This document shows, piece after piece, positions 177-18,878 of a stretch of 29,974 nucleotides of DNA. Source of the stretch: a virus; the IMG/VR virus record IMGVR_UViG_3300033149_004993, positions 1-29,974 of that record; one strand, 5' to 3'. Made by a program: the position numbers and the translations under genes. The notes below the pieces were generated by a model. That model ran no database searches, had not been told where the DNA came from, and was given only the letters and a program-made list of their open reading frames with translations. Each line of letters starts with the position of its first letter. Position 1 is the first letter of the stretch.

Positions 177-2369
177 ATGCGTAATATTCAATTTCAAGAA
201 GTTATTATGGAGAATTTTGGACCCTATATTGAACCGATGAGTTTATCGTTCTCAAATAATCAATTAACTTTATTAACAGGTCCGAACGGTATCGGCAAAA
301 CGCTGGCACTTGATGCACTCCCATTCACTCTTTATGGTATCACATCAAAGAAGGCAAAAGGTGATGATGTTGTCAATAATCGAGTTCAGAAAAATTGTAA
401 AACCTGTGTTCGTTTTAAAATAAATGATGACCAGTATATTGTAACACGTTATCATAAATATACAAAACTTGGTAATACAGTTATTTTAAACAAGAATGGA
501 GTTGATATAAGGAAGGGTCACCGAGAAGTAGTTCCTGAAATTGAGAGACTTGTTTGTCCACAAAAAGCATTTATGAATACTTTAATGTTTGGTCAAAAGG
601 TCAAAGATTTCTTTACTGATTTGGTTGACTCAGATAAGAAAGAAATTTTTAGAAAGATTCTGGGTTTTGAAAAATATGTTACTTATTATAAGAAGGCTGA
701 TGAAGAACTTAAAGGAATAGTAAAATTATTAGATAGTATCCAACGTCAAATCGGTATTGATGAGGGATTACTTGAAGATTCAATTATTCAAATAAAGTCT
801 TTAGAAAAATACCAAGATGATTTTTATAAAAGAAAACAAGATTCAATTGACTCATTAAATAAATCGTTAGAAGAAAATAAAAGACTATTAAAAATTTGGC
901 AACGGAAATTAGAGTCTATTCAATCTGATAGTGATACAGATTCAACGAAAATAATAAAAGAATTAAGTCAGGTTGAATCTAAACTTGCATTTATTCAAAG
1001 TAATTATAAGCAAGAACTTAATATTCTACATCAGAAAAAGACATTAAAAATTAATGAAGTTACCTCAGAAGCAGACACACAGATAAAGTATATCACTGAT
1101 AATATTAAATCTAAACTGGATGAAATAAGAGACGAACGATTAACTTTACAAAATGAGTTAACTGATTTCATTTCGATAAAACAAAAAGAAATTCATCAAG
1201 TTGAACTTGAGATTGGAAACATCAGAGCCCTAAATAAAAATATTCAAGAGAATATTAATAACATAATTCATAATGTTTTAGAGCAAGATATTTCATCATG
1301 CCCAACTTGTGAACAAAGTGTAACTGACGATGTAAAAGATAACCTTCTTGCTAAAACAGAGAATCTTAAATCAGCAATTGGGGAAAATGAAAGTAAAATT
1401 GAGGAATTAAAAAAGAGAAAAATTCTCTTGAAAAACGAAAGAGAATCTTTCAAAACTAAAACTCTTGAAAAGTCTGATAAATTAAATTCTCAAATTGAAG
1501 AATTACATAAAGAGGAAAATAACGAACGATCTAAAATCAATGAGCGGTTACTTGATGTTATCTCTAAAATTGAAGACATTGCAACTCGAGAAGGACAAAA
1601 TATTTTAAAAAAAACAAAATCTGATGAAAAAGAGTTAATTGAAAGAGAAAAACAACTTAAAGAAGAAAAAGAGAAAATTGATAAAAAACAACAAGAAATT
1701 GACGGAGTAAAAGATAATATTAAATTATCAGAACAGGAAATTAATTCTATTGAAAGACAGATAAAGAATAAGCGAGAAGAAGAATATGATGAAACACAAT
1801 TGAACTCCTATATCAAAAAGAAATCAACTTTGGAAAATACGTTGATAGAAAATAAAGAACAAACTTCTAGATTAGAAAAGCAAGTTGAAATTTATAGATT
1901 TTGGAAAACTGCATATTCATCATCTGGAATTCCTTCAATGTTGATTGATGACGCAGTTCCGTTTATGAATGAGAAGATTAGTGAGTATCTAGAAATGTTA
2001 ACTAATGGTAGATATATTGTCTCATTTGATACATTAGATTCGACAAAAGCTGGAGAATTTAGAGATAAAATATCTGTTCATGTTATAGATACAGAAACTA
2101 GAGCAAATTCGAGAGTTCAATTATCAGGTGGCCAGACAAGGATTATTGATATTGCTACTATTTTAACGCTTGGGGATTTGCAGTCGAGTATTCAAGATGT
2201 TAAATTTAATATCTTATTATTTGACGAAATATTTGATGCGTTAGATACTAATAACACAGCATATGTTTCAAAGGTTTTAAATAAATTGAAGATTGGGAAA
2301 TCAATCTATGTAATATCTCATCAACATCAGGATCATTTAGAACCTGATAATACTCTTAGTATGAGATAA
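177..2369 (+). CDS. SbcC/Rad50-like recombination ATPase (T4 gp46 type)
   Basis: The 730-residue protein has the full SMC/Rad50 plan. A Walker A GPNGIGKT lies at residues 35-42, followed by a long charged coiled coil from about 170 to 590. The coil is interrupted near its middle by a zinc-hook CPTC (C375, C378). The C-terminal lobe has the ABC signature LSGGQ at 649-653, Walker B ILLFDE with D683/E684, and the switch histidine in ISHQHQ. Family knowledge: these proteins pair with an SbcD/Mre11 nuclease to process DNA ends and support recombination-dependent phage replication. AAGGAG (165-170) sits just before ATG 177. No SbcD-like gene is visible here; it may lie upstream. The length is intermediate between T4 gp46 and bacterial SbcC. 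The fold and family are secure; the phage role is inferred. Confidence 0.93.
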   Translation: MRNIQFQEVIMENFGPYIEPMSLSFSNNQLTLLTGPNGIGKTLALDALPFTLYGITSKKAKGDDVVNNRVQKNCKTCVRFKINDDQYIVTRYHKYTKLGNTVILNKNGVDIRKGHREVVPEIERLVCPQKAFMNTLMFGQKVKDFFTDLVDSDKKEIFRKILGFEKYVTYYKKADEELKGIVKLLDSIQRQIGIDEGLLEDSIIQIKSLEKYQDDFYKRKQDSIDSLNKSLEENKRLLKIWQRKLESIQSDSDTDSTKIIKELSQVESKLAFIQSNYKQELNILHQKKTLKINEVTSEADTQIKYITDNIKSKLDEIRDERLTLQNELTDFISIKQKEIHQVELEIGNIRALNKNIQENINNIIHNVLEQDISSCPTCEQSVTDDVKDNLLAKTENLKSAIGENESKIEELKKRKILLKNERESFKTKTLEKSDKLNSQIEELHKEENNERSKINERLLDVISKIEDIATREGQNILKKTKSDEKELIEREKQLKEEKEKIDKKQQEIDGVKDNIKLSEQEINSIERQIKNKREEEYDETQLNSYIKKKSTLENTLIENKEQTSRLEKQVEIYRFWKTAYSSSGIPSMLIDDAVPFMNEKISEYLEMLTNGRYIVSFDTLDSTKAGEFRDKISVHVIDTETRANSRVQLSGGQTRIIDIATILTLGDLQSSIQDVKFNILLFDEIFDALDTNNTAYVSKVLNKLKIGKSIYVISHQHQDHLEPDNTLSMR

Positions 2370-2387
2370 CGAGGAATAAGTCAATTA

Positions 2388-2424
2388 CTTCGACCACAAG
2401 GTTTTCTCGCGTCAAACTTATAAA
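2388..2424 (+). promoter_or_regulatory. Promoter-like element, degenerate copy of the phage repeat
   Basis: This block begins CTTCGACCACAAGG and ends GCGTCAAACTTATAAA. It matches the near-identical elements at 21239 and 22831, except that the bases forming the 3' half of the main hairpin stem are missing. The shared part is the CCACAAGG core plus GCGTCAAACTTATAAA. It lies in the gap right after the sbcC-like gene and upstream of the 2566 gene. The conserved TTATAAA looks like a -10 box, without a recognisable -35. Its use as a promoter is inferred from conservation and position. Confidence 0.55.
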
Positions 2425-2514
2425 TTTCAATTATATTAACCTTTCATATATTTTAATATTTGTTCTATAAAAAACATCAGATCAAAATTAAAAAAATAAC
2501 TTAAGGAGGTATAA

Positions 2515-2558
2515 GGTGAGTTCCTCTTCGACCATAAGGGTACGAGGTTTCTCTCACC
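2515..2558 (+). promoter_or_regulatory. Stem-loop between a Shine-Dalgarno and the 2566 start codon
   Basis: GGTGAG (2515-2520) pairs with CTCACC (2553-2558). Inside, CCTC (2523-2526) pairs with GAGG (2544-2547), enclosing the CGACCATAAGGGTACGAGG core shared with the other phage repeats. A strong AAGGAGGT (2503-2510) lies 5' of the hairpin, and ATG 2566 lies 7 bases after it. Folding would bring the two within about 11 bases. The same bases also encode the leader peptide at 2516-2566, so folding and translation exclude each other. Confidence 0.5.
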
Positions 2559-2566
2559 GATTCTAA
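2516..2566 (+). CDS. 16-residue leader peptide coupled to the downstream gene
   Basis: AAGGAGGT (2503-2510) is ideally spaced from GTG 2516. Reading from there gives a 16-residue peptide starting MSSSSTIRVRG and ending at TAA 2564-2566. That TAA shares its last base with the ATG of the next gene (TAATG). The peptide is encoded by the hairpin repeat itself. A good Shine-Dalgarno plus a stop-start overlap is typical of translational coupling or a regulatory leader. The alternative is that the Shine-Dalgarno serves ATG 2566 directly through the folded hairpin. There is no independent evidence that the peptide is made. Confidence 0.4.
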   Translation: MSSSSTIRVRGFSHRF

Positions 2567-2949
2567 TGAAAATAAAAAGTGATTTCATCACTAACAGTTC
2601 TTCAACTTCATATATTGTTTTAGATAATGGAAGGATTCCATTAAATTTAAAACTGCTTTTAGATAAAGAAGGACTTGAAGGATTCGATATTCGAGAATGT
2701 GAAGTATTTGAAGGAGGGCAAGTAGATAAGTTTAAACGATATAATAATTATGGTGATCGTTTAGATTGGGTTGAAAACGTAGTTGGGCCGCAACTTGGAG
2801 TATTAAGCAGGACAGCATATAATATTGCAATTACTCATATAAGCGAAGGTCGTCATATTCATTATATTAGAGTAACCAAAAATTATGATTTTCACCAACT
2901 TGTTAATAAAATATATCAACTTCAAATAGTATATTCACAAGGAGATTAA
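2566..2949 (+). CDS. Small protein with an FITNSSSTSY-type N-terminus
   Basis: A 127-residue protein beginning MKIKSDFITNSSSTSYIV. A closely similar N-terminus (F-V/I-S/T-N-S-S-S-x-S-F/Y) recurs at the start of many otherwise unrelated phage and bacterial hypothetical proteins; its role is not known to me. The rest is a mixed alpha/beta chain rich in Tyr and His, with no signal peptide or membrane segment. Start ATG 2566 overlaps the stop of a short leader reading frame, so its translation is probably coupled to it. It ends 2 bases before a radical SAM gene, so the two are very likely co-expressed. Function not recognised; a modified substrate of the radical SAM enzyme is one speculative option. 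Confidence 0.75.
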   Translation: MKIKSDFITNSSSTSYIVLDNGRIPLNLKLLLDKEGLEGFDIRECEVFEGGQVDKFKRYNNYGDRLDWVENVVGPQLGVLSRTAYNIAITHISEGRHIHYIRVTKNYDFHQLVNKIYQLQIVYSQGD

Positions 2950-2951
2950 GA

Positions 2952-3995
2952 ATGAGTAAGATTCGTATTGTCAATTGGTTATTAACAAGAAGATGTAATT
3001 TAAATTGTGATTATTGTGCTATTGTAAAGGACTATACTATAAAGCCGCCAGGATATCCAGACATTTCCTATTATATTAAAAATGAAATGACAACAGATTA
3101 TATAATCAAGTGTTTAGATTTATTTAAAAAACATAACCCTGACCATTTTAATATCTTTTATGGTGGTGAACCATTATTGAGAAAAGATTTACCTGAAATT
3201 ATAAATTTCTGTAACGATAATAATATTTATTACACAATCATCAGCAACAACACAAAGCAAATTCAACCAGCAATAAAAAGACTTTTTAGGAATACAAAGT
3301 ATATTCAAGGTTTTACAAGTTCAGTAGATCCAATTTTCAATAATAAAAATAATTTTACTGATCGAGTAATAAAAAGCATTGAAGGTTTTAAACAGTTGGT
3401 TGAAATTAAAAAGCAAGGAAAAATTAAAGATGTTGTGGCTGAAATTACAGTTATGAAACACAACGTCAAATATTTATTTGATCTTGTTAAAAAATTAACT
3501 ACAGAAGGGATAAATAGTGATATAACATTTATTGATATTTCTAAGAATCCTTTCTATGACTTTTCAAACGTACATGATAAAAGTCAATTAGTAACAAAAG
3601 AAGAAGCAAAAGATCAAATTCAAATGCTTCTGGATAGTGATCTAAATATACATATGAAAGATCAATTGTTACCTAAAATATTTGACTCACTTCCATCTAA
3701 TATGGATTGTGAAATTGATAAAGGTCTTCATAATGTAACTATTGATGCAGATGGTTCAATTAGATTATGTCTTCGTGTAAGAGGACTAAAAAGTCCAACA
3801 ATACAAGCACATCAATTATTTGACAAGTCTGATATTAATCTTACATCTCCAATCGTTCAAAAAGTGATAAATAAGGATAAAAAAGACTTTTGTGAATTAT
3901 GTAATCATACATGCCAATTAATGAGCAAGATTATTGATAGTCAAAATCTTGATCCTAATGACCTAGTTCATAAGGATATAAGGGAGGGTAATTGA
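2952..3995 (+). CDS. Radical SAM enzyme with C-terminal Cys-rich (SPASM/twitch-like) region
   Basis: The 347-residue protein opens with the canonical RRCNLNCDYC: C15, C19 and C22 form the CX3CX2C motif that binds the SAM-cleaving 4Fe-4S cluster. The FYGGEPLL motif that contacts SAM follows. The C-terminal third holds several more cysteines (MDCEID, RLCLRV, then CELCNHTC), in the position where SPASM or twitch enzymes carry auxiliary clusters. Such enzymes often modify peptides or proteins, but the substrate cannot be read from the sequence. It overlaps the following gene as TGATG, and the NSSSTS-type protein lies immediately upstream. It is much longer than QueE, so 7-carboxy-7-deazaguanine synthase is a weaker alternative despite the folE2-like gene in the window. 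Confidence 0.85.
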   Translation: MSKIRIVNWLLTRRCNLNCDYCAIVKDYTIKPPGYPDISYYIKNEMTTDYIIKCLDLFKKHNPDHFNIFYGGEPLLRKDLPEIINFCNDNNIYYTIISNNTKQIQPAIKRLFRNTKYIQGFTSSVDPIFNNKNNFTDRVIKSIEGFKQLVEIKKQGKIKDVVAEITVMKHNVKYLFDLVKKLTTEGINSDITFIDISKNPFYDFSNVHDKSQLVTKEEAKDQIQMLLDSDLNIHMKDQLLPKIFDSLPSNMDCEIDKGLHNVTIDADGSIRLCLRVRGLKSPTIQAHQLFDKSDINLTSPIVQKVINKDKKDFCELCNHTCQLMSKIIDSQNLDPNDLVHKDIREGN

Positions 3996-4333
3996 TGCCT
4001 GACAAAAAGAAAAAAGATAATGTTGATTCTGATATTATTGTCTCAGCTGTCAAATTTTGGAAAAAGGTATTTGAGGAAAAAGATGTTGTTATAAAATTTG
4101 TTAAGAAAGATGGAACAGATCGTATAATGAGATGTACTTTAGATTTTACCAAAATACCAAATATAGATCATCCCAAAAGAGTCGATATTGAGAAAATCCT
4201 TAAACTTATTCAACAGAATAAAATTATGCACGTTTATGATTTAGAAAAAAAGGGATGGAGATCTGTACCTTTTGATAGAGTTGAATGGATGGATACAAAA
4301 ACAAGACGATACTATGTAAAGAAGAAGAGGTAG
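3995..4333 (+). CDS. SH3-beta-barrel-like phage protein
   Basis: 112 residues from ATG 3995, which shares a base with the TGA of the radical SAM gene. AGGGAGGG at 3981-3988 fixes this start over the TTG one codon upstream. The middle reads VVIKFVKKDGTDRIMRCTLD and the C-terminus contains VYDLEKKGWRSVPFDRVEW. This is the pattern I associate with the short phage SH3-barrel family (DUF2693-like): a strand-turn-strand around KKDGTxR and a final strand around W-R-S/F. Family assignment is from memory of the motif. Members are small and of unknown function. The basic N-terminus (PDKKKKD) and C-terminus (VKKKR) could favour nucleic acid or RNA polymerase contact, which is speculative. Confidence 0.7.
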   Translation: MPDKKKKDNVDSDIIVSAVKFWKKVFEEKDVVIKFVKKDGTDRIMRCTLDFTKIPNIDHPKRVDIEKILKLIQQNKIMHVYDLEKKGWRSVPFDRVEWMDTKTRRYYVKKKR

Positions 4334-4334
4334 A

Positions 4335-4688
4335 ATGACTTTATTAAAGCAACTATTAGGTGAGATCAAATCTGATAACAGACTTGATAAATTAAGGCAA
4401 TTATGTGATCAAATCATCAAGGAAGAAAACAAAAGCACACATAAACAACTTCCTAAAGGTCCAAATATTATTTTAGCATTAGAAGTACCCGGAAGAACAT
4501 CAAAAGAAATTGCATTTCTAACTTTAGAACGAGAAAGTGAAGATATTTACTTGTCAGTTCTATACACATTACCAATATTGGGGGATGACAAATTAAAGAA
4601 ACAACGAGTTTGGGAAATAAAAGATCACAGACCCGAAAAAATATTAAACAATTACTTAAAAGTTTATAAATACTTAAGAGGTGAATAA
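4335..4688 (+). CDS. Unknown 117-residue protein
   Basis: ATG 4335 follows the previous stop by one base, and the gene's TAA overlaps the ATG of the next gene. It therefore sits tightly in the operon that leads into the conjugation cassette. The N-terminal 35 residues look helical and charged (LLKQLLGEIKSDNRLDKLRQL). A small alpha/beta part follows, with IILALEVPGRTSKEIAFLTL and a helical end. I see no motif, signal peptide or membrane segment and do not recognise the family. Confidence 0.7.
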   Translation: MTLLKQLLGEIKSDNRLDKLRQLCDQIIKEENKSTHKQLPKGPNIILALEVPGRTSKEIAFLTLERESEDIYLSVLYTLPILGDDKLKKQRVWEIKDHRPEKILNNYLKVYKYLRGE

Positions 4689-7246
4689 TGAGTAAAGAAG
4701 TTCTTGAAATTAGAATTAATCCAGAATATTCACAATTAAACAGATCAATTTATGATAAGTCATTGAAAGAAGATTCAATTCCACAAATCAGACAAAAAAT
4801 AGTAACGACTGATCTTTATATGAAGAAAATAAACAATAAAATGAATACTACAACAACATTCATTCCAACAAATTGTCGTTATTTAGAAAAATTATCTGAT
4901 GGAAGCCATTTAGTTGTAACAGAAGAAGCACCAGCTATAAGAACAATTAAATTTGATTTTCCCTATGAAAAAGAACTTTATCAATTAGAAGAAGCTGGAA
5001 AATTAAAGGAATGGGGAATTTCACGAGATGAATATATAAAGAATAAACCTTCAAAACCCTATTCTTACAGACTTGCATTTCCTTATGTAGTTTTTATTCA
5101 AGCATTTGATAGAAATAATTATTTATATGCTGGACAGGTATTTTTTAGAGTTGCTAGACTTAGTGGATTTGCAGATTATCTTTTGAAAGCACCGCTTCTT
5201 AATATTTCTTCTGATCAATTCATTTGTTATGGAGAATTTAATAAAGAGAATAGGTCACTAGAGGCTGCTGTTCAGGATACTAGCTTAACATTTTGGTCAA
5301 CAAAATTTAATGATGATTATGTGTATAATTATCAATCTTATAGAAGCAAACCAATTTTTGGAAATTATATTGAGTGGGAATATTATACTGAGTTGAATCC
5401 AATGTTCATATATAGCGCTGATTGGATTAAAATAGATAAGAATATAGGTCAAATGATAGGTAAATTTAAAGAAAGATATAAACTCAATGGTAATAGAAGG
5501 TTCGGATTCAGCGATTTATCAAAACTATTTACATCACCATCAACAACATCAAAAGTAGAGAAGGTTACTAAAAACCATACAAAGGAATTATATTATGATG
5601 TTGCACAAGGTCTGTTCTTAACAAGGAATTTATTTATCAATGTTGGAGATTCTTTAACATTGAAAAATGGGAAACGTGCTTATATAAACTCATTTATTAG
5701 TTTTCTAGATGCATCTGATATAAAATATATTCAGTTGAAAGATGAAAATGGCAAGGAAATATTGCTGAAATATAACAATAGAGTTGCTAAGTTTCTTAAA
5801 GATGTATTTGAAAAAGAAAGAAATCAAAAAGAAGGTATGTTTGCTAATGGAAAGAAAGTTAAAGCTGGGGATATTGTAGCTATCAAACCAGTTAATGCTA
5901 TTAAGAAAACTAATGTGCCACCAATTTATAAGAAAGTTCAATATATAAGGAAAACTATAGATGGCATGACAGAAGCTAGACTAAATGATACTTTCTATAT
6001 CCTAGAAAATACCGTTGGTCAAGTTGTTGACTTAAATAAACCGATATACGGAGATATCAAGATATCTAAAGATAAAGAATATCTCTTAATATCATCAATT
6101 GATAAAACTTGCATTCATAGAGGAGCAGCTGTTAAATTTAATAACGTAACTGTAGATTCAAAAGGTTCATTAGTATTAAAGTTTATTGATCACAGTTCTA
6201 TTGGTAATGGTTATGAACACAATCTCAAAAGTAACTCTCAGTATAAAAGATTGGTTGAAATTCATAATACTAGAAAACTTCCAGATATATTTAAAGTCAA
6301 CAGAACATTAATGACAACTTATCCAAGAGGTTTAGCTTGGGGGTCAGAACATGGTTTAATTCTTCATGATAAGTGTGAGATACAAACTCCAAGAATAAAT
6401 TCTTTTGTAAAAAATTGTCTATTAGATAACAATACAAGACTTCACGTTGAAGGTGTCGACTCTGATATAGATTTTCAAATTGGAGATAAAGTTGTTTCTG
6501 CCGACTGGTTAAATCCAATAAATACTCTCATTATCAAAACTATTCAGGGATTTAAAGTTAATAAAGATACTGGAATTATTGATTTTGTCCTAGAAGATAA
6601 AAATGGAAAACTAACTATCACAAAATATATAGATATTACACATGGAATTATATTTGTTGGGAGAATAAGAAGGATTGTTAATGAATACGAAAAGGTTTTA
6701 GCTGGGACAAAAATCATTGCCGAAAAGGGTTATATTCCAAACTTCCCCAAGAAAGATACCAATATTATTATCGGTTTTATCACTGATACAGGGAGAGACG
6801 ATCCTCTAGTTCTTTGTTCTAACGGTTGTACTTTATGGTATAGTTTTATGATGAAGAACTTCAAGAGAGTAACAATGAAATCGAGTAAATGGAAAAACCT
6901 CCAACATGTTCCTCTTGATATAAGAAAAATCCCTTTTCAACCAGGCGATATTATTCAATATAAAGGTTTTGATGAGAATAGATCTGGTTGGGTAATTTAT
7001 TTGAATAACCACTCAACACAAAAAATAGTTAAAGCAGCATATTCCAGATATATTAGTACACATTCTTTAGATTCTTATATTAAGGATTCGTCATATTTTG
7101 ATTGTATCCCAAATCCAAGAATACCAAGAAAAGATATTAATCTTGAGAATTGTAGAAATGGATATACAAATTACCATGGTCACTTTATAGAAAATTCAAT
7201 CTCAAAATTTAGATTTATAGACGAAGGGAGTTTTTTGAATGTTTAA
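4688..7246 (+). CDS. E2-like domain (PRTRC-B/Prok-E2_D-like) fused to repeated SH3/KOW-like barrels
   Basis: 852 residues. Around residues 120-215 the protein reads YRLAFPYVVF, then KAPLLNISSDQFICYGEF, then FWSTKF. This P-x-L-N-x4-(D/G)-x-(I/V)-C-x-G pattern, with C180 as candidate active-site cysteine and an aromatic FW..xF after it, matches what I recall of the PRTRC protein B / prokaryotic E2 family D. From about 310 onward there are repeated short beta units with a GD/GK turn: VGDSLTLKNGKRA, KAGDIVAIKP, QIGDKVVSAD and QPGDIIQYKG. These suggest four to five SH3/KOW-type barrels. The gene overlaps the JAMM peptidase gene by 8 bases, which supports a shared pathway. The E2 call is an inference from motif and neighbourhood; a structural protein with tandem barrels is the alternative. 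Confidence 0.55.
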   Translation: MSKEVLEIRINPEYSQLNRSIYDKSLKEDSIPQIRQKIVTTDLYMKKINNKMNTTTTFIPTNCRYLEKLSDGSHLVVTEEAPAIRTIKFDFPYEKELYQLEEAGKLKEWGISRDEYIKNKPSKPYSYRLAFPYVVFIQAFDRNNYLYAGQVFFRVARLSGFADYLLKAPLLNISSDQFICYGEFNKENRSLEAAVQDTSLTFWSTKFNDDYVYNYQSYRSKPIFGNYIEWEYYTELNPMFIYSADWIKIDKNIGQMIGKFKERYKLNGNRRFGFSDLSKLFTSPSTTSKVEKVTKNHTKELYYDVAQGLFLTRNLFINVGDSLTLKNGKRAYINSFISFLDASDIKYIQLKDENGKEILLKYNNRVAKFLKDVFEKERNQKEGMFANGKKVKAGDIVAIKPVNAIKKTNVPPIYKKVQYIRKTIDGMTEARLNDTFYILENTVGQVVDLNKPIYGDIKISKDKEYLLISSIDKTCIHRGAAVKFNNVTVDSKGSLVLKFIDHSSIGNGYEHNLKSNSQYKRLVEIHNTRKLPDIFKVNRTLMTTYPRGLAWGSEHGLILHDKCEIQTPRINSFVKNCLLDNNTRLHVEGVDSDIDFQIGDKVVSADWLNPINTLIIKTIQGFKVNKDTGIIDFVLEDKNGKLTITKYIDITHGIIFVGRIRRIVNEYEKVLAGTKIIAEKGYIPNFPKKDTNIIIGFITDTGRDDPLVLCSNGCTLWYSFMMKNFKRVTMKSSKWKNLQHVPLDIRKIPFQPGDIIQYKGFDENRSGWVIYLNNHSTQKIVKAAYSRYISTHSLDSYIKDSSYFDCIPNPRIPRKDINLENCRNGYTNYHGHFIENSISKFRFIDEGSFLNV

Positions 7247-8807
7247 AATCCACATAAACGATGGAACAAATGAGTTACCTAAAGATGATATATTTTATAT
7301 CGTTGCAAAAGATGGAATATATCTTAAGAAAACATTAGGAGTAATGGACAGTATCGCACCAGTGAAAAATATTTCAACACTACAAGAAATTTCAACTGTA
7401 GCAAGAATGAATATCAAGAAAATTCCTGGTGGCCAATTTGCTAAAGTTATAGCTTTTTTTAAAGAAGTCTATAACAAATATAAATCAGAAGCTGTGGTGC
7501 TTTTATTCTATAATGAGAAAACGAAAGTTTATAAGATAGTTGTCCCACAACAAAAAGTTTCTGCTACATCTATTGAGTATGACCGAGGCATGATTCTAAA
7601 AGGTTATAATATGATTGGTACAATTCATAGCCATGCTGCCATGTCTGCTTTTCATTCTGGTACAGATCACGATGACGAAATATCATTTGATGGTCTTCAT
7701 ATAACAATTGGTAATATCAATACAGATTTTAGTATTTCAGCATCAATAATCTCTAATAAGAACAGATTTATGGTTGAACCTGAAGAATATATTAACAGAA
7801 TTACTAAAATAAAAGATGTTAATGAAAATATCACCAAACCAGTAAGAGTGGTATATAAATATTGTCACACTCAAAAGAAACTAGTTCCTGACGAAAAAGC
7901 ATCAGCCAGATTTGGGACTACAAGTTATACCAAACTGGATAAACGTTATCAAGTTAATGTTTCAGAACGAAATTTCAAAGTTTCAAAAGGTTGGATGGAT
8001 ATGGTTGAGCACATAACCTACTATAATAGACATTGGCAGAACCACTATCATAGAAATCAACATATGATTAACCATTCGTGGGGGGGTCATTATGATGCAT
8101 CCTTATGGGGCTATGGTTATAATTATAATAATCCAAATCTTGTAGGAAAAACAACTATGCCTGCAACTGTAGATGACAAAAAGGATAATGATGATATCCC
8201 CTGTCTAACTTGTAAGTTTAAAAAATATAAAATCCTTATTGAAGAAGATGAGGATGATACAATTGATTATTATGTCTGTAAGAAATGTGAAAGTATATGG
8301 GAAGAAGAAAATCTAATTGATGGAGAACAATGTCCCATTTGTATCACTGGAGATTTTCTAATTCCATATGAAGATCAAGATGGAGATCAAGAGAACGAAA
8401 AAGGTCTTAAAAATAACTATGTATTAGAGGATAAATATGATCACCTATTTGAAAAAGATACATCTATTCCTCTAACTCCTCCATCTGAATTTATTAGTTG
8501 TCCACATTGTAATGAGACTTTTCATATGTTCAACAGAGAAAGTAAATGTCCTTTTTGTCATAAATTACTAACTTCAAAAGTACAAGATACTGAATCAGAA
8601 CGAGAACAACAGTTGAGTAAAGACTCGGGTCAATTCTTGGGTGAAGATACGGAAGAAATAAATCTAATAGCCAAAGAGATTATACAGAAATCTAAAGAAA
8701 TCAATGTGGAAAAAATTCCTGATCCTAATGAAAACTCCACTCCCATTCAAGAGAATCAAAATATAATCCGAGGGATGTTTAGAAAAGTATTTGGAAGGAA
8801 ATGGTAA
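7239..8807 (+). CDS. JAB/JAMM metallopeptidase with five CxxC zinc pairs
   Basis: 522 residues. The N-terminal MPN domain carries a complete JAMM motif: E84 in the SEAVVLL strand, then H130-S-H132, seven residues, S140 and D143 (HSHAAMSAFHSGTD). Family knowledge: JAMM enzymes cut isopeptide or peptide bonds after a ubiquitin-like C-terminus. A low-complexity His/Asn/Tyr/Gly stretch follows at about 260-300. Then come five CxxC pairs at C322/325, C347/350, C365/368, C421/424 and C437/440; the last two pairs form a classic zinc ribbon. The end is acidic and probably disordered. ATG 7239 lies inside the end of the E2-like gene and the E1-like gene follows at once. Likely role: deconjugation or processing of the modifier encoded at 9510. 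No NlpC domain is present, so this is not the lambda tail type. Confidence 0.88.
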   Translation: MFKIHINDGTNELPKDDIFYIVAKDGIYLKKTLGVMDSIAPVKNISTLQEISTVARMNIKKIPGGQFAKVIAFFKEVYNKYKSEAVVLLFYNEKTKVYKIVVPQQKVSATSIEYDRGMILKGYNMIGTIHSHAAMSAFHSGTDHDDEISFDGLHITIGNINTDFSISASIISNKNRFMVEPEEYINRITKIKDVNENITKPVRVVYKYCHTQKKLVPDEKASARFGTTSYTKLDKRYQVNVSERNFKVSKGWMDMVEHITYYNRHWQNHYHRNQHMINHSWGGHYDASLWGYGYNYNNPNLVGKTTMPATVDDKKDNDDIPCLTCKFKKYKILIEEDEDDTIDYYVCKKCESIWEEENLIDGEQCPICITGDFLIPYEDQDGDQENEKGLKNNYVLEDKYDHLFEKDTSIPLTPPSEFISCPHCNETFHMFNRESKCPFCHKLLTSKVQDTESEREQQLSKDSGQFLGEDTEEINLIAKEIIQKSKEINVEKIPDPNENSTPIQENQNIIRGMFRKVFGRKW

Positions 8808-8808
8808 T

Positions 8809-9489
8809 ATGAAATTAGATATCGCTATAATTGGATTAGGCGGAGTCGGATCTATTCTATTGGGAAGACTCTCTAGATTCTTAAACTTTTCTAGAGATAT
8901 AGAGGCAAAAATCAATCTCATTGACGGAGATAATTATGAAGTAAAAAATTATGAACGACAAGAATTTGGTCAAATTGGAAACAAAGCAGATATTAAAGAG
9001 TTAGAATCAATAACAAGATATACTAATATCAAATTCGAGTCCTTTCCTGTCTTTATAAACGAAACAAACCTTAATGAAATGATTAAAGAAGACAGTATCG
9101 TATTTATGTGCGTAGATAACCATAAGACCAGAATGTTAGTATCCAATTACTGTAGAAATTTGAAAAATGTTACTTTAATTTCTGGTGGAAATGAATTTAC
9201 GGATGGAAATGTACAGATATATATAAGAAAAGATAGTAAGGATCTAACTCCTGATTTATGTAAATACCATCCGGAAATTGCAAATCCAGATGACAAATTA
9301 CCAGAGGAAATGTCTTGCGAGGAATTAGCACAATCCGATCCTCAACTATATTTTACTAATTTAGGTGTTGCAACATTAATGTGTTGGGCGTTTTATAACA
9401 CAGTTATAAAACAAGATTATGAACGTTCAGAAATCTATTTTGATATTCTATCAATGAATACCAATTCAAAAGTCAGAGTAGTAAACTAA
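8809..9489 (+). CDS. E1/ThiF-like adenylating enzyme (first copy)
   Basis: 226 residues from ATG 8809, chosen over TTG 8791 because GGAAGGA (8792-8798) is correctly spaced. The Rossmann loop is IIGLGGVGS near the N-terminus. LIDGDNYEVKNYERQEF follows, then the basic residue of GNKADIKEL and the CVDNHKTR segment. These are the ATP-binding and adenylation positions of the ThiF/MoeB/E1 fold. GGNEFTDGNVQIYI resembles the equivalent part of PRTRC-type ThiF proteins. Candidate thioester cysteines are in DLCKYHP and EEMSCEEL; neither is proven. The length is that of a bare ThiF domain without eukaryotic-style extra domains. It is expected to adenylate the C-terminus of the SAP-Ubl protein encoded 20 bases downstream. 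Confidence 0.88.
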   Translation: MKLDIAIIGLGGVGSILLGRLSRFLNFSRDIEAKINLIDGDNYEVKNYERQEFGQIGNKADIKELESITRYTNIKFESFPVFINETNLNEMIKEDSIVFMCVDNHKTRMLVSNYCRNLKNVTLISGGNEFTDGNVQIYIRKDSKDLTPDLCKYHPEIANPDDKLPEEMSCEELAQSDPQLYFTNLGVATLMCWAFYNTVIKQDYERSEIYFDILSMNTNSKVRVVN

Positions 9490-9509: not shown

Positions 9510-9986
9510 ATGGCACAAAAAAAGTTTACCAGAGAAGAACTCGATGCAAAACGTGTAGTTGATTTGAAAGAAATGTGTGTTTATGAACTGGATATTCCAG
9601 GGATGACCAAGAAAAGAAAAGAGGTGGTTATAGATGCTATTATGGCAAAATATGGAGAAGCCAGTACAGCAAAGACATCTGCTATCTCTACAAAAGCAGA
9701 ACCCATTAAGGGTGTTGAATTTTCTGGTCATAGTGTTCTATCAAAACCGGAAATGCCTTTCGGAAAAAGAACAAGTACCACCATTCAAGTTTCTTGTGGT
9801 GCTTCTTCTGGTAATTTTCCTGTTGCAGGTAGGTCAGTCAAGGAAGTTGGCGAATTTCTACGTGAAGTTCTAAACGTGGATCGTCTTTCGACAGGTCTAG
9901 TCAATGGTAAAGAAGTTGATCCAGATTATCTTCTAAAACCAGGCGACAACCTTGAATTCTTGAAACCAGCCGGTAGGAAAGGATAA
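9510..9986 (+). CDS. SAP-domain/ubiquitin-like (beta-grasp) fusion protein
   Basis: 158 residues. Residues 6-48 form a SAP-like helix-extension-helix (VVDLKEMCVYELDIPGMTKK...EVVIDAIMAKY), a fold that usually binds DNA. A Ser/Thr/Ala-rich linker runs to about 85. Residues 88-158 match a MoaD/ThiS/ubiquitin-type beta-grasp: TTIQVSCG strand, helix SVKEVGEFLREVL, then VNGKEVDPDYLLKPGD and NLEFLKPAGRKG at the C-terminus. The chain ends exactly in Gly, as needed for adenylation, although it is KG rather than GG. It has its own AAAGGAG site and a strong terminator directly after it, and looks less AT-rich than its neighbours, suggesting high expression. Likely the modifier of the cassette. A sulfur-carrier role is the main alternative. 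Confidence 0.8.
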   Translation: MAQKKFTREELDAKRVVDLKEMCVYELDIPGMTKKRKEVVIDAIMAKYGEASTAKTSAISTKAEPIKGVEFSGHSVLSKPEMPFGKRTSTTIQVSCGASSGNFPVAGRSVKEVGEFLREVLNVDRLSTGLVNGKEVDPDYLLKPGDNLEFLKPAGRKG

Positions 9987-10064: not shown

Positions 10065-10925
10065 GTGGTGTATAAGAATATAACTGTTATAGGACTCGGA
10101 ACCCTTGGAGGTTTCGTTGCTGATGCTGTTTCAAGTTTAGAAAGTACTGAGAAGATAATAATTATAGACCACGATGTAGTTGAGTCAAAGAATCTTAAAA
10201 ACTCAATATACAGACAAATTGATATTGGCTTGCCAAAAACTGAAGCACTTAAAGATATTTTACAATCGAAAAATCAAGATCTAGATATTGAAATTATGAC
10301 AGAAAAATTTCTTGAGCAGAAATCAGAAATTCCAGATAGTGATTTAATCTTAGACTGTAGAGATATAACATATGATCGAGGAACTAAAATTGATGCTCGT
10401 ATGTTTATTTCGTCTAGATATTTAATAGTTGATTGTCGTAAAAATGTCAATTACTCAAAACAAGTAGTTGGAAAATATATAGTCGAATTAAGCAAAGATG
10501 ATTTAAGATATGCTGCTTCAATTGTATCAATGGCAATTCATAGTGGAACATTTAAGTCTTTGTTAAAAAACAAATCAGTGCAAAAATATGAACTAGATTA
10601 TGTAAAGCATATTGACAATTACGAATGTGATATTGTATATGAAAATTTAGTTGGAGAAAATAAATTTATTAACCTTCCAGACAAAATTGTTCCTATAATT
10701 GACATGAACAAATCAAAAGATATAAATGTCTTTTTAGGAAGTAAAGTATTACCAATCACTGAAAGATTGATTCCAAAGAATACATTACAGAACAGCGGAG
10801 ATTTAATTTCAAATTTAATATCTGTCGCTACAAGCGAATGTGATTTTAACCATTTTATTATCTCATTATTTCAAGAAAACAACCAAGTTTTTATTGAATT
10901 AATACCAGAAACGGGAGCAGCTTAA
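10065..10925 (+). CDS. E1/ThiF-like protein (second, divergent copy)
   Basis: 286 residues from GTG 10065 (GTG 10068 is also possible); AAAGGG at 10053-10058 supports either. The ATG at 10063 is out of frame. The N-terminal half is a Rossmann domain: VIGLGTLGG, IIIDHDVVESKNLKNS, then YRQIDIGLPKTEALKDIL, which keeps the Arg-Gln and Lys expected in ThiF/MoeB adenylation domains. DLILDCRD follows. The C-terminal half (from about 150) is unlike the first copy and has no clear catalytic CxxC; scattered Cys occur in NYECDI and SECDFN. Its TAA shares a base with the ATG of the E2-like gene, so the two are likely translated together as an E1-E2 pair. It may activate the same modifier, a different one, or act as a non-catalytic partner. 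Confidence 0.75.
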   Translation: MVYKNITVIGLGTLGGFVADAVSSLESTEKIIIIDHDVVESKNLKNSIYRQIDIGLPKTEALKDILQSKNQDLDIEIMTEKFLEQKSEIPDSDLILDCRDITYDRGTKIDARMFISSRYLIVDCRKNVNYSKQVVGKYIVELSKDDLRYAASIVSMAIHSGTFKSLLKNKSVQKYELDYVKHIDNYECDIVYENLVGENKFINLPDKIVPIIDMNKSKDINVFLGSKVLPITERLIPKNTLQNSGDLISNLISVATSECDFNHFIISLFQENNQVFIELIPETGAA

Positions 10926-11263
10926 TGTTAGTAAAAAATACATTTGTTCCCGGTGTTTTTGTCCCATATAAATTAATTTTTAAAAATGAACTTTACAATA
11001 TTATAGATTTAGAAAAAAAATTTATAATTAGAGGATATACGATCCAGACTGTAGATAAACAAATTGATATGGTTTTTATAAAGAATCCACATCCAAATGC
11101 AAATCCAAAGACTGGTGAATTTTGTATCCCCAACTCATTAAGAGAACATACTATTTGTACAAGTAGTAAAAATATCTTAGAATTAATGTTATGTTGCTTT
11201 AATTTAGACGATTGTTATTTTACTCCTTGGGACGAAATAAAATATAAAAGACAAGAGGTGTGA
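10925..11263 (+). CDS. Compact E2-like conjugating enzyme with HPN...C motif
   Basis: 112 residues. The core reads NPHPNANPKTGEFCIPN: H56-P57-N58, eight residues, then C67. This is nearly the spacing of the ubiquitin E2 signature, where HPN is followed after about seven residues by the active cysteine. The strands before it (FIIRGYTIQTVDKQIDMVFI) and the helix after it (NILELMLCCF) also fit a minimal E2/UBC core, with FTPWD near the end. It is shorter than eukaryotic E2s, lacking much of the C-terminal helices. It overlaps the second E1 gene by one base (TAATG). No other E2 with HPN is present in the window. The assignment is from motif plus context. Confidence 0.65.
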   Translation: MLVKNTFVPGVFVPYKLIFKNELYNIIDLEKKFIIRGYTIQTVDKQIDMVFIKNPHPNANPKTGEFCIPNSLREHTICTSSKNILELMLCCFNLDDCYFTPWDEIKYKRQEV

Positions 11264-11673: not shown

Positions 11674-14379
11674 ATGCCAAAAATATTAGATTATAATTCA
11701 TTTTGTGAAAACTTAGACGAAGTGACGTCTCTAAAAACATTTAGTAAAAAGAAGTTCCATCCAGAGGGACTATTTTCTGAGCAAATATTCGGTCCAATAA
11801 AAAATTATACTTGCCAATGTGGAACCTATTATGGAATTTCACGAACAGGCGAACAATGTAAATTATGTAAAGTTGATATTGTAAACAGTAATATACGAAG
11901 AAAAAGATTCGCAAAAATTACAATACCAATTAAAGTTGTAAATCCATTATTTTATGACCTTTTGGTAGATCTTGGTGGAAAGGATTTAAAGAAAGCTATT
12001 GATACACTTATGCGAAATGAGAAAAGTATTTTATATAAATCTCAAGATGATTATATAGTTACTGTTAATCAGAATACTCCAATTCCAGAAGGTTGTCAAG
12101 TTTGGGAACGAGCTGGTGCGATCTATGAGTTAATACTTGGAGTTGCAACAGTTGCAGTTAAGGGTGGTTCTGTTGAATGGAAATATATATTAGAAACTCT
12201 TGACAATTTATTAATTGACCAAATAATTGTTTTACCTCCTGACTTGAGACCAACATCAAAAAGTTCAGGAAAAAATAAGCAATTAATGGACAGAATAAAT
12301 AGATATTATATTCAAATTCTTACAAGGAAAGAAGCTATGAAAGAGACAATTATAAATATCTATAAAGATAAGGATTTGTATTATACCTATTTTAAACAAC
12401 TCCAAAAAGATGTAAATGAATTATATACAAGGATATTAGAAAAGATAGCAAAGAAAGAAGGTCTGATAAGAGGAAACATTCTTGGAAAAAGAATTGACTT
12501 TTCAGGTCGCGCTGTTATTACACCAGATCCTACTCTTAAGTTAGACGAGTGTAAATTACCATATCTAATGGTCCTTGAAATATTCAAATTACCAATAGCA
12601 AAGAGATTGTTAGAACTTGGCAAGTTTAAGCCATTAAACCAGGCAATTGATTTTGTAGATAAATGTATTGACAATCAAGTTCCTGTTTTATATGGAATTT
12701 GTAACGATATAATTACTGGAAAATATTGCGTATTAAATAGACAACCTTCTCTTCATAAATTAAGTATGCTTGGTTTTAAAATTAAAATAACATTAGATCA
12801 AGTTATTAAAATACACCCTCTTTCTTGTCCTCCATTCAATGCTGATTTTGATGGGGATCAAATGGCGGTTTATATACCAATTACTGAAGAATGTGAAAAA
12901 GAGATTGAAGAAAAGATATCAATTAAAGAAAATTTAAATAGTCCTGCAAACGAATCTCTTACAACCATACCAACTCAAGATATTGTCTTAGGAATATACT
13001 ATTTAACATCATCTGAATTTAAAAATAGAGAAAAAGTCACATATAAAAATCAGAAAATCACTTGGGGTCAAGTAGTATTTAATAAACAATTACCAAAAGA
13101 TTATCCAGTTATATCAGATGTTGTTAATAAAAAATTATTACTTCAAATATTAAATGATATTAAAAATAGATATACGACAGATGAAGCAATTAAAGTTCTT
13201 GATAATATAAAACGTATTGGTTTTAAATATGCAACATTGTTTGGTTGTACAATGTCATTAAAAGATTGCTATATTGAAGAATCAAAAGAACTTAAGAAAG
13301 ATATTTACTCTCCTAAAAGTACAAGGGAGCAATTAGTTGCTTCATCAGATCAGTCACTAATTGAAAAAATAAGAAATAGTTTTAAATACTCACATATGAT
13401 TGAATCTGGTGCTAGAGGTAGTTGGGACCAGGTAAAACAGTTAATTTTAACACGAGGTTTTATTTCAAATTTTGATGGTGAGATTTTACCTTACCCAATT
13501 AAAAACTCATTGATTGACGGGCTAAACCAAGAAGAGTTTTTCTTTTCAACATATGGATGCCGTAAAGGTTTATTGGATGTTGCTTTAAATACTGGAACGT
13601 CTGGCTACCTTTCAAGAAAATTAATTTTTACATGCGCAAATTTGCAAATTGATTTAGAACTAGAAGATTGTGGCACTAAAGATCTTCTTGAAGTAAATGT
13701 AAGCAGTAAACGAAAAGCAAGAATGTTAATTAATAGATATTATTCTGAGAATAATTCTCTACATAAAATTACAAGTGAAAATTATAAAAGTCTTATTGGT
13801 AAACATATTGAAATAAGAAGTCCAGTTCTTTGTAAGAGTCCAAAAATTTGCCATAAATGTTATGGTGATTTATACAAAAACTTAAATAGTCGATTCATTG
13901 GGATTATTGCTGCTCAAACTCTTGGTGAAAGGGGTACACAATTAGTATTAAGAACTTTTCATACTTCAGGGTCAGCAATTATAAAAGGCGAAGAAACCCA
14001 AGATGAATCAATGAGACAAAAAGATATTATTGGCGATCTCGCCTCAGTTTCAAAGTTACTGCATAAATTTAGAGGAAAAACATATACTGATATAATTGAA
14101 GAATTATTTGATGTCTATGATAAAGATATATATCACGTTCATTTTGAATGTGTAGTTTCACAGTTAATGTGGAAATTCCATACTAAATGGAGATTGCTAG
14201 AAAACAGAGATCAAGTTTCGCCAGATTATTTCTCAGTCCAAAGCGTCCCAAACAACGAAAGTTGGATTTTAGCTATGGCATTTTCAAACCCCAAGAGAGC
14301 AATTTTACAGGGAATCTTATATGAGAGTAGATACTCAGGAATCATTGATAAGATTCTGAAAGGTGAAAAAATAAACTAG
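11674..14379 (+). CDS. Phage DNA-directed RNA polymerase, beta'-like subunit
   Basis: 901 residues in one chain. The N-terminus has the beta' zinc-binding pattern CQC (C47, C49) and CKLC (C62, C65). The catalytic magnesium motif NADFDGD is intact, with D391, D393 and D395. GARGSWDQVKQL corresponds to the region before the bridge helix, and GTQLVLRTFHTSG (R760 to H763) to the trigger loop. The C-terminus keeps beta'-like blocks (DIIGDLASV, SNPKRAILQGIL) but ends early at KILKGE and has no large insert. It is shorter than E. coli beta' (about 1400 residues) and, unlike several giant phages, is not split into pieces. With the beta subunit at 14593 it would form the catalytic core that transcribes phage promoters. 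No alpha, omega or sigma gene is recognised here. Confidence 0.95.
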   Translation: MPKILDYNSFCENLDEVTSLKTFSKKKFHPEGLFSEQIFGPIKNYTCQCGTYYGISRTGEQCKLCKVDIVNSNIRRKRFAKITIPIKVVNPLFYDLLVDLGGKDLKKAIDTLMRNEKSILYKSQDDYIVTVNQNTPIPEGCQVWERAGAIYELILGVATVAVKGGSVEWKYILETLDNLLIDQIIVLPPDLRPTSKSSGKNKQLMDRINRYYIQILTRKEAMKETIINIYKDKDLYYTYFKQLQKDVNELYTRILEKIAKKEGLIRGNILGKRIDFSGRAVITPDPTLKLDECKLPYLMVLEIFKLPIAKRLLELGKFKPLNQAIDFVDKCIDNQVPVLYGICNDIITGKYCVLNRQPSLHKLSMLGFKIKITLDQVIKIHPLSCPPFNADFDGDQMAVYIPITEECEKEIEEKISIKENLNSPANESLTTIPTQDIVLGIYYLTSSEFKNREKVTYKNQKITWGQVVFNKQLPKDYPVISDVVNKKLLLQILNDIKNRYTTDEAIKVLDNIKRIGFKYATLFGCTMSLKDCYIEESKELKKDIYSPKSTREQLVASSDQSLIEKIRNSFKYSHMIESGARGSWDQVKQLILTRGFISNFDGEILPYPIKNSLIDGLNQEEFFFSTYGCRKGLLDVALNTGTSGYLSRKLIFTCANLQIDLELEDCGTKDLLEVNVSSKRKARMLINRYYSENNSLHKITSENYKSLIGKHIEIRSPVLCKSPKICHKCYGDLYKNLNSRFIGIIAAQTLGERGTQLVLRTFHTSGSAIIKGEETQDESMRQKDIIGDLASVSKLLHKFRGKTYTDIIEELFDVYDKDIYHVHFECVVSQLMWKFHTKWRLLENRDQVSPDYFSVQSVPNNESWILAMAFSNPKRAILQGILYESRYSGIIDKILKGEKIN

Positions 14380-18035: not shown

Positions 18036-18878
18036 ATGGATTGTTTACCAGATATACAATGTTCTCATCCAGAGGTAAATATACCTATACAACAAGTTGG
18101 TGTTGAGAATATAGAAGTACCTTTTAAACTCGAGTTTAGAAGTGGAGGTTTCTGCCAGATGAATGCTAATGTATCAATAAGAACAGATCTTGATCAAGAT
18201 ACAAAGGGAATTTCAATGTCTAGACTCTTATTAACTTTAAAGCCATATTTAGATTTACCTCTTAAACAAAAATTAATTAAATTAATATTAGAAGATTTAC
18301 GAAACAATATTGGTAGTACAAATAGTTTTATGAAATTTAGTTTTCGTATGCCAATAATTAGAAAGTCAATTTTGTCAGACCATCAATTTCCAATATACTA
18401 TAAATGTCGGTTCGAAGGTCAATTGAAAAATGGAGATTTTAGTTTTTTTCAAGGAGTTGTAGTTCAATATGCATCATATTGTCCATGTTCCGCAGAACTC
18501 TGTCAACATTTAAGAGAAAATGATTCAGTCGGTTTTCCACATAACCAAAGATCGTTTGCTGACGTTTTAGTACAAGTGAAACAACCAAACTATGTCTGGC
18601 TTGAAGATATTATTGATTCCATTGAATCTGCAATTAAAACATTACCATATCCTATAATCAAAAGAGTTGATGAGCAAGAAATTGCAAGAGTAGCAGCAGA
18701 AAATCCTTTGTTTGTTGAAGATGCAATCCGATTAATTTCATATCAACTAAATAATATGGGAACATTATATGATTGGATAGTTAAATGTAGTCATGAAGAA
18801 TCAATCCATACATCTGAAGCAATTGCTATAAATTGGAAAGGTGTACCAGGTGGTTTTAGTGAAAGGAGATTTTTATGA
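18036..18878 (+). CDS. folE2: GTP cyclohydrolase IB (FolE2-type)
   Basis: 280 residues, close to the normal FolE2 length. Diagnostic segments are present. KGISMSRL (residues 58-64) corresponds to the family's KGTHMSRF. SYCPCSAELC, with C149/C151, corresponds to the CPCSKEIS active-site cysteine motif. It is followed by FPHNQRS, matching the family's AHNQRS. The enzyme converts GTP to 7,8-dihydroneopterin triphosphate, the first step of both folate and queuosine/7-deazaguanine synthesis. FolE2 differs from FolE in metal choice and is less dependent on zinc. TAGGGGGAAA precedes ATG 18036. In a phage the likely purpose is 7-deazaguanine DNA or tRNA modification, but QueD, QueC and a clear QueE are not seen in the window. 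Confidence 0.88.
   Translation: MDCLPDIQCSHPEVNIPIQQVGVENIEVPFKLEFRSGGFCQMNANVSIRTDLDQDTKGISMSRLLLTLKPYLDLPLKQKLIKLILEDLRNNIGSTNSFMKFSFRMPIIRKSILSDHQFPIYYKCRFEGQLKNGDFSFFQGVVVQYASYCPCSAELCQHLRENDSVGFPHNQRSFADVLVQVKQPNYVWLEDIIDSIESAIKTLPYPIIKRVDEQEIARVAAENPLFVEDAIRLISYQLNNMGTLYDWIVKCSHEESIHTSEAIAINWKGVPGGFSERRFL

Follow-up and report, generated by a model that had tools for sequence, protein, structure and literature searches.

Introduction

In bacteria, the conjugation of ubiquitin-like proteins is known chiefly as an anti-phage weapon, as illustrated by Cap2 from CBASS. In eukaryotes, UBE2O, an E2/E3 hybrid, carries a UBC-type E2 and SH3-like barrels on one chain. The phage protein analyzed here shares this composition, but its E2 belongs to a different family, its domain order is reversed and there is no evidence for common descent.

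Closer systems are found in bacterial operons which encode a JAB protein, an E1, a tag and an E2 devoid of the HPN histidine but possessing another, absolutely conserved histidine downstream (Iyer et al., 2006; PMC1779556). Among them, Prok-E2 family D, or PRTRC-B (operon type 6d in Iyer et al., 2006), contains an E2 module homologous, by profile comparison, to that of the phage protein, with the same P-x-x-N...C-x-G motif. PRTRC-B operons similarly encode as neighbors a PRTRC-A-like JAB, a ThiF E1 and a ubiquitin-like protein with a C-terminal glycine. While plasmid and phage E2-D proteins stand alone, with 229–270 residues, the phage fusion is extended by ~570 residues of barrels. In addition, its operon contains a further E1-like protein (E1b), a small candidate E2 of the HPN type and a tag joined to a Rho-N/SAP-like domain. 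Because all PRTRC bit scores in the operon are far under the equivalog cut-offs and profile scans recognized in it none of the other genes known from PRTRC (those for the helical protein, ParB, etc.), its sequences identify it as a PRTRC-like variant and not as the PRTRC system proper. What is new with respect to PRTRC is the E2 architecture, the additional E1-like protein and a further protein that is probably an E2.

The window, i.e., the whole stretch of a virus record that was analyzed, comprises 29,974 bases and belongs to a large bacterial virus that is uncultured. We assign a probability of roughly 0.7 to the reading that the fusion serves as E2 in a ubiquitin-like conjugation system encoded by the phage and has its own substrate receptor; this reading is built on homology, residue conservation, gene linkage and the fold of at least one barrel. 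A phage lineage appears to have its own complete pathway, with the substrate receptor built into the E2. If true, ubiquitin-like conjugation pathways serve viruses too, the fusion provides an independent example of the UBE2O-style E2-plus-barrel design, and the function of E2 family D becomes testable in a compact operon of four to six genes.

Gene Organization

The window contains genes for the RNA polymerase beta' and beta subunits, a large terminase and an SbcC/SMC-like ATPase. The fusion is read from one uninterrupted frame, stops being abundant on the opposite strand. The genes of the operon are closely packed, several of them overlapping by a few bases, and follow each other in the order radical SAM, WYL_2, 117-aa protein, fusion, JAB, E1a, ubiquitin-like tag, E1b and 112-aa protein, after which the gene for beta' starts at position 11674 (Table 1).

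Table 1. Coordinates of the fusion, its domains and the neighboring genes within the window.
Feature	Position	Strand	Basis
E2 family D and tandem barrel fusion, 852 aa	4688..7246	+	single ORF; 56 distinct homologues
E2-D (PRTRC-B-like) module, residues ~33-215	4784..5332	+	hhalign against 15 E2-D proteins; Prok-E2_D
C180 codon, predicted thioester-forming cysteine	5225..5227	+	invariant 56/56; aligns with E2-D cysteine
Beta-rich tandem SH3-like barrels, residues ~285-852	5540..7243	+	AF2 model; Foldseek
Best-defined barrel, residues 596-663	6473..6676	+	VIA-align
JAB/JAMM isopeptidase (predicted), C-terminal zinc-ribbon-like cysteine pairs, PRTRC-A-like	7239..8807	+	PRTRC_A; JAMM residues
E1a, E1-like adenylating enzyme (ThiF; predicted)	8791..9489	+	ThiF; conserved residues
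Ubiquitin-like protein, N-terminal Rho-N/SAP-like domain, C-terminal G-[RK]-K-G	9510..9986	+	weak profiles; conserved end
E1b, second E1-like protein	10065..10925	+	ThiF; arginine finger position not kept
112-aa minimal UBC-like E2 candidate, HPN...Cys (H56-P57-N58, C67)	10925..11263	+	conservation; AF2
WYL_2/Sm-like barrel protein, same operon	3992..4333	+	WYL_2 E 4.9e-7; cluster neighbor kept in relatives
117-aa operon protein	4335..4688	+	precedes fusion in most contigs
Radical SAM protein, C-terminal cysteines	2952..3995	+	Radical_SAM E 7.7e-12; in nearly all contigs, upstream of cluster

The N-Terminal Module and Its Cysteine

The original prediction, made from the sequence of the window, placed a PRTRC-B-like E2 domain at residues 120–215 of the fusion. 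Profile–profile comparison (hhalign) with 15 E2-D proteins, independent of each other and encoded by plasmids or named phages, bears out the E2-like nature of this region (probability 97.6%, E = 3.5e-12) but enlarges the module to residues ~33–215. As negative controls, three segments of the barrel region reached only 0.1–0.6% probability against the same E2-D profile. Judged from these alignments, homology to E2 family D extends along the N-terminal module. Library profiles gave scores under their cut-offs for the fusion itself: Pfam Prok-E2_D (PF14460) matches residues 163–219 with E = 5.1e-4 and 20.3 bits (cut-off 25 bits), and NCBIfam PRTRC_B gives E = 0.027 and 13.8 bits (cut-off 131). 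Prok-E2_D is found at E ≤ 1 in 18 of 22 relatives, and its cut-off is exceeded by two relatives. Sequence searches with the fusion and with the E2-D alignment found no matching solved structure. The list of PDB fold matches to the full-length model shows no UBC chain, probably because the barrels fill this list, and this absence is not counter-evidence to an E2 fold.

Residues 169–182 of the fusion, PLLNISSDQFICYG, include C180. In the joint alignment with the 15 E2-D proteins, P169, N172 and C180 are the sole invariant positions, C180 being aligned with the E2-D cysteine. Conservation of this residue had been put forward as a check of the prediction and it holds throughout the 56 distinct full-length homologues, which are 20–49% identical to the window protein where measured. 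Only nine positions of the window protein are invariant in this set, including C180, N172, W203 and N208 (56/56 each), while D210 is kept in 55 and G182 in 53 homologues. D210 occupies the position taken as that of the downstream histidine of Iyer et al. (2006), provided that the latter corresponds to FNxH, in which case the fusion would depart from E2-D as described. Of the E2-D proteins examined from plasmids and phages, roughly half likewise lack this histidine and have an aspartate or another residue. It is therefore not family-defining in this sample.

Homologues of the fusion range from 785 to 1094 residues among those measured and the E2 and barrels are always joined; the fusion is therefore fixed, and ancestral, within this group. 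In one contig (L092), the fusion gene is duplicated in tandem (2307–4664 and 4664–7108, coding for 785 and 814 residues), with the C180 equivalent present in both copies.

The Barrel Region

An AlphaFold2 model of the fusion, built with 22 sequences, has a mean pLDDT of 85.5 and a pTM of 0.56, meaning that confidence is high for the individual domains but not for the way they are arranged. The model is almost entirely beta from residue ~285 onward, these ~570 residues being mostly folded as barrels. The best PDB matches obtained with Foldseek are Spt5/DSIF chains (E = 3.3e-5), followed by the triple Tudor of SETDB1. Similarly to the tandem KOW domains of Spt5/DSIF, the fusion would thus display a row of SH3-like barrels, among which a single one, residues 596–663, is individually well matched and securely superposed. 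With VIA-align, this barrel resembles the Tudor domain of 53BP1 (Z 6.4, rmsd 1.9 Å over 52 positions), Spt5 KOW2–KOW3 (Z 6.0, rmsd 2.1 Å over 48 positions), ribosomal proteins of the small subunit (Z about 6) and a UBE2O barrel (7yw1, Z 5.2).

In contrast to Spt5/DSIF, Pfam scans recognized neither an NGN domain nor the KOW family in the fusion, and the KOW family was likewise not recognized in its relatives. The prediction of several SH3/KOW-type barrels is supported by the Foldseek matches to Spt5, with one secure barrel. Since the Z scores are modest and small barrels are common, we read these modeled likenesses as a shared fold and not as descent; KOW, Tudor or generic SH3-like barrels would all fit the fold matches. 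Two candidate relatives were discarded: the barrels have no profile similarity to the neighboring WYL_2 gene, of which they might have been duplicates, and gp579 of Bacillus phage G, a Foldseek match from the viral library, has no profile relation to either half of the fusion.

C710, located in the barrel region, is found in 49 of the 56 homologues and is, together with C63, the best kept cysteine after C180. It lies within a strongly conserved stretch of this region, LVLCSNGCTLW (residues 707–717, window 6806–6838).

JAB, E1-Like Proteins and Tag

By their conserved residues, two neighbors of the fusion, the JAB protein and E1a, are intact. In the JAB protein, which matches PRTRC_A with E = 2.3e-12 and 46.9 bits (cut-off 102), the complete JAMM set (E84, H130, H132, S140 and D143) is found in 53/53 sequences. 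E1a matches ThiF (E 1.5e-17), and its GxGGxG motif, R56, Q57, K65, D109 and C176 are strictly conserved (51/51); PRTRC_ThiF is also matched in the operon (E 7.1e-9). E1b matches ThiF as well (E 1.4e-15) and keeps GxGxxG, D35 and K58 in all 52 sequences. Because the position of its arginine finger, R50, is kept in only 19 of these, E1b is probably, on sequence grounds, a partner protein, a partial E1 or a pseudo-E1. Both E1-like proteins match PADLOC profiles of E1–E2 defense proteins (E 4.6e-6 and 1.5e-10). In contrast to these, the operon is phage-borne and encodes separate proteins, and no PADLOC profile matches the E2-D/barrel protein.

The tag has weak matches to ThiS/TGS/MoaD and Rho_N profiles (Rho_N, E = 0.033), Rho being also among its weak PDB profile matches, and its C-terminal domain is beta-grasp-like. 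Its C-terminal G-x-K-G is invariant (G155, K157 and G158, 51/51). It stops precisely at KG in 31 of the 51 sequences, with one extra cysteine in 13 and more residues in a few, as if the JAB protein would need to trim the terminal cysteine of these 13 tags before activation. A second tag-like protein is encoded in L025 (6060–6497) and L026 (6046–6486), just 5' of the E2 fusion, as well as in L081–L083 and L088. Where measured, the likeness lies mainly in the Rho-N-like part.

Since the tag and E1 also resemble ThiS and ThiF, the cluster is preceded by a conserved radical SAM gene and folE2 lies inside the window, the cluster could alternatively be a sulfur-carrier pathway (ThiS/ThiF/JAB-like) feeding, together with the radical SAM protein, the modification of a cofactor or base, with E2-D as a scaffold for sulfur or acyl transfer instead of a protein-conjugating enzyme. 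We consider this quite improbable: known sulfur-carrier pathways include neither an E2-D whose cysteine is invariant nor a second protein of the HPN...Cys kind. Moreover, no major metabolic links were seen for operons of this kind (Iyer et al., 2006; PMC1779556).

The 112-Residue Protein

The last protein of the operon was not part of the original prediction. It contains an HPN motif followed, nine residues on, by a cysteine, which is a classical E2 signature; H56, N58 and C67 are found in 50/50 sequences and P57 in 49/50. In Foldseek searches with its AlphaFold2 model (pLDDT 94.8), the top three matches are ubiquitin-conjugating enzymes, with E values of 0.3–0.5 however, and the matches listed by VIA-align are ubiquitin E2s, with Z scores of 5.0 or less. 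UQ_con was matched in one of 22 family members (E = 0.0059), and no profile relation to E2-D was found. Collectively, this protein is a probable minimal E2.

The presence in one operon of two conserved proteins with E2-type cysteines (C180, 56/56; C67 with HPN as above), the smaller of which resembles ubiquitin E2s in its modeled fold, allows another assignment. The 112-residue protein could be the true E2 and the fusion an E3-like protein of HECT type, which would receive the tag from the small E2 on C180 and transfer it to a target bound by the barrels. This assignment appears unlikely. In L108, a 64.8-kb fragment, the fusion, JAB, E1 and tag are present but neither the small E2 nor E1b was found, and the plasmid E2-D loci L038, L044 and L050 lack an annotated partner of HPN type. 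The content of L108 suggests that the core of the system consists of the four genes for the E2 fusion, JAB, E1 and tag.

Distribution and Relatives

In IMG/VR, about 55 contigs, with lengths reaching 277 kb, carry the cluster, which adjoins rpoC in nearly all of them. The whole fusion had no match by tblastn in 50,697 phage records, nor in a single-sequence scan of IMG/VR; relatives were reached via the JAB, E1a and tag genes, and later also directly. The tag profile had no match in one genome per species from 84,980 bacterial and archaeal species, and the only match of the fusion profile in cellular genomes is a contig (L114) from a Thermoplasmatales MAG. As its gene order, SMC-rSAM-E2-JAB-E1-tag-E1b-p112-rpoC, is the same as in phage contigs, L114 is probably a misbinned phage contig; alternatively, it could reflect an archaeal host.

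Short E2-D proteins (229–255 aa) adjoin JAB and ThiF-like genes in Vibrio phage D69, Salmonella phage Arash and Bacillus phage KLEB27-3. In Arash, mass spectrometry of purified particles revealed Gp248 (E2-D), Gp247 (JAB) and Gp246 (ThiF) (PMC10585845), which would be expected if the fusion were a virion or structural protein with a purely structural E2-D fold. Yet the proteins detected in these particles number 116 and include many enzymes, and the authors allow for carry-over (PMC10585845). These data show that Gp246–Gp248 are made, with carry-over into particles possible. Furthermore, the strict conservation of C180, N172, W203 and N208 and the intact E1 and JAB sequences argue for catalysis, making a structural role very improbable indeed.

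No description of the E2-D/barrel architecture was found in the literature searched, the coverage of which was incomplete, and ubiquitin is not mentioned in a 2026 review on jumbo phages.

Proposed Pathway

For a fusion acting as the E2 of a conjugation system, the following mechanism can be proposed. The JAB protein would first trim the residues past the last glycine of the tag, where present. E1a, whose key residues are conserved, would then adenylate this glycine and take the tag as a thioester, probably on C176. The tag would next move to the conserved C180 of the E2-D module, while the fused barrels, as their place in the architecture suggests, would hold the target, one protein thus likely performing the jobs of an E2 and of an E3-like substrate receptor, as in UBE2O. 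Finally, the intact JAMM motif is consistent with the JAB protein removing the tag again.

The leading guess for the target is a nucleic-acid or transcription-complex partner, because of the Spt5-like barrels, the Rho-N/SAP-like domain of the tag and the adjoining phage RNA polymerase. In its fullest form, this proposal is a reversible phage pathway for protein tagging that has two proteins each of the E1-like and E2-like kinds, and in which the main E2, by its fixed Spt5/Tudor-like barrel array, steers the tag during infection to the transcription complex of the phage or of the host; so detailed a scheme is possible, though on balance doubtful. A scaffolding of RNA polymerase by the barrels, as suggested earlier, is kept as a hypothesis. 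The link to this polymerase rests on the gene order of one lineage and weak fold matches, and since these phages share their gene order as one lineage, adjacency to rpoC is not independent evidence.

Other Genes of the Window

The radical SAM protein contains a CxxxCxxC motif and, close to the C-terminus, additional cysteines; its scores with the viperin and NirJ profiles are far under their cut-offs. A folE2-type GTP cyclohydrolase is encoded at window 18036–18878 (GCHY-1, E 1.7e-62) and might indicate that the phage has a pathway for 7-deazaguanine or folate. The sequence MKIKxDF[VI]TNSSSxxF starts small proteins encoded by 56 ORFs, which are spread over 38 contigs; it was seen only at the N-terminus, with no internal occurrence. 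Examples are found in L002 (1136–1480, 1485–1775 and 5235–5621), L114 (544–933) and the window (2566–2949). As the latter gene is directly 5' of the radical SAM gene, its product could be a substrate or leader of the radical SAM protein.
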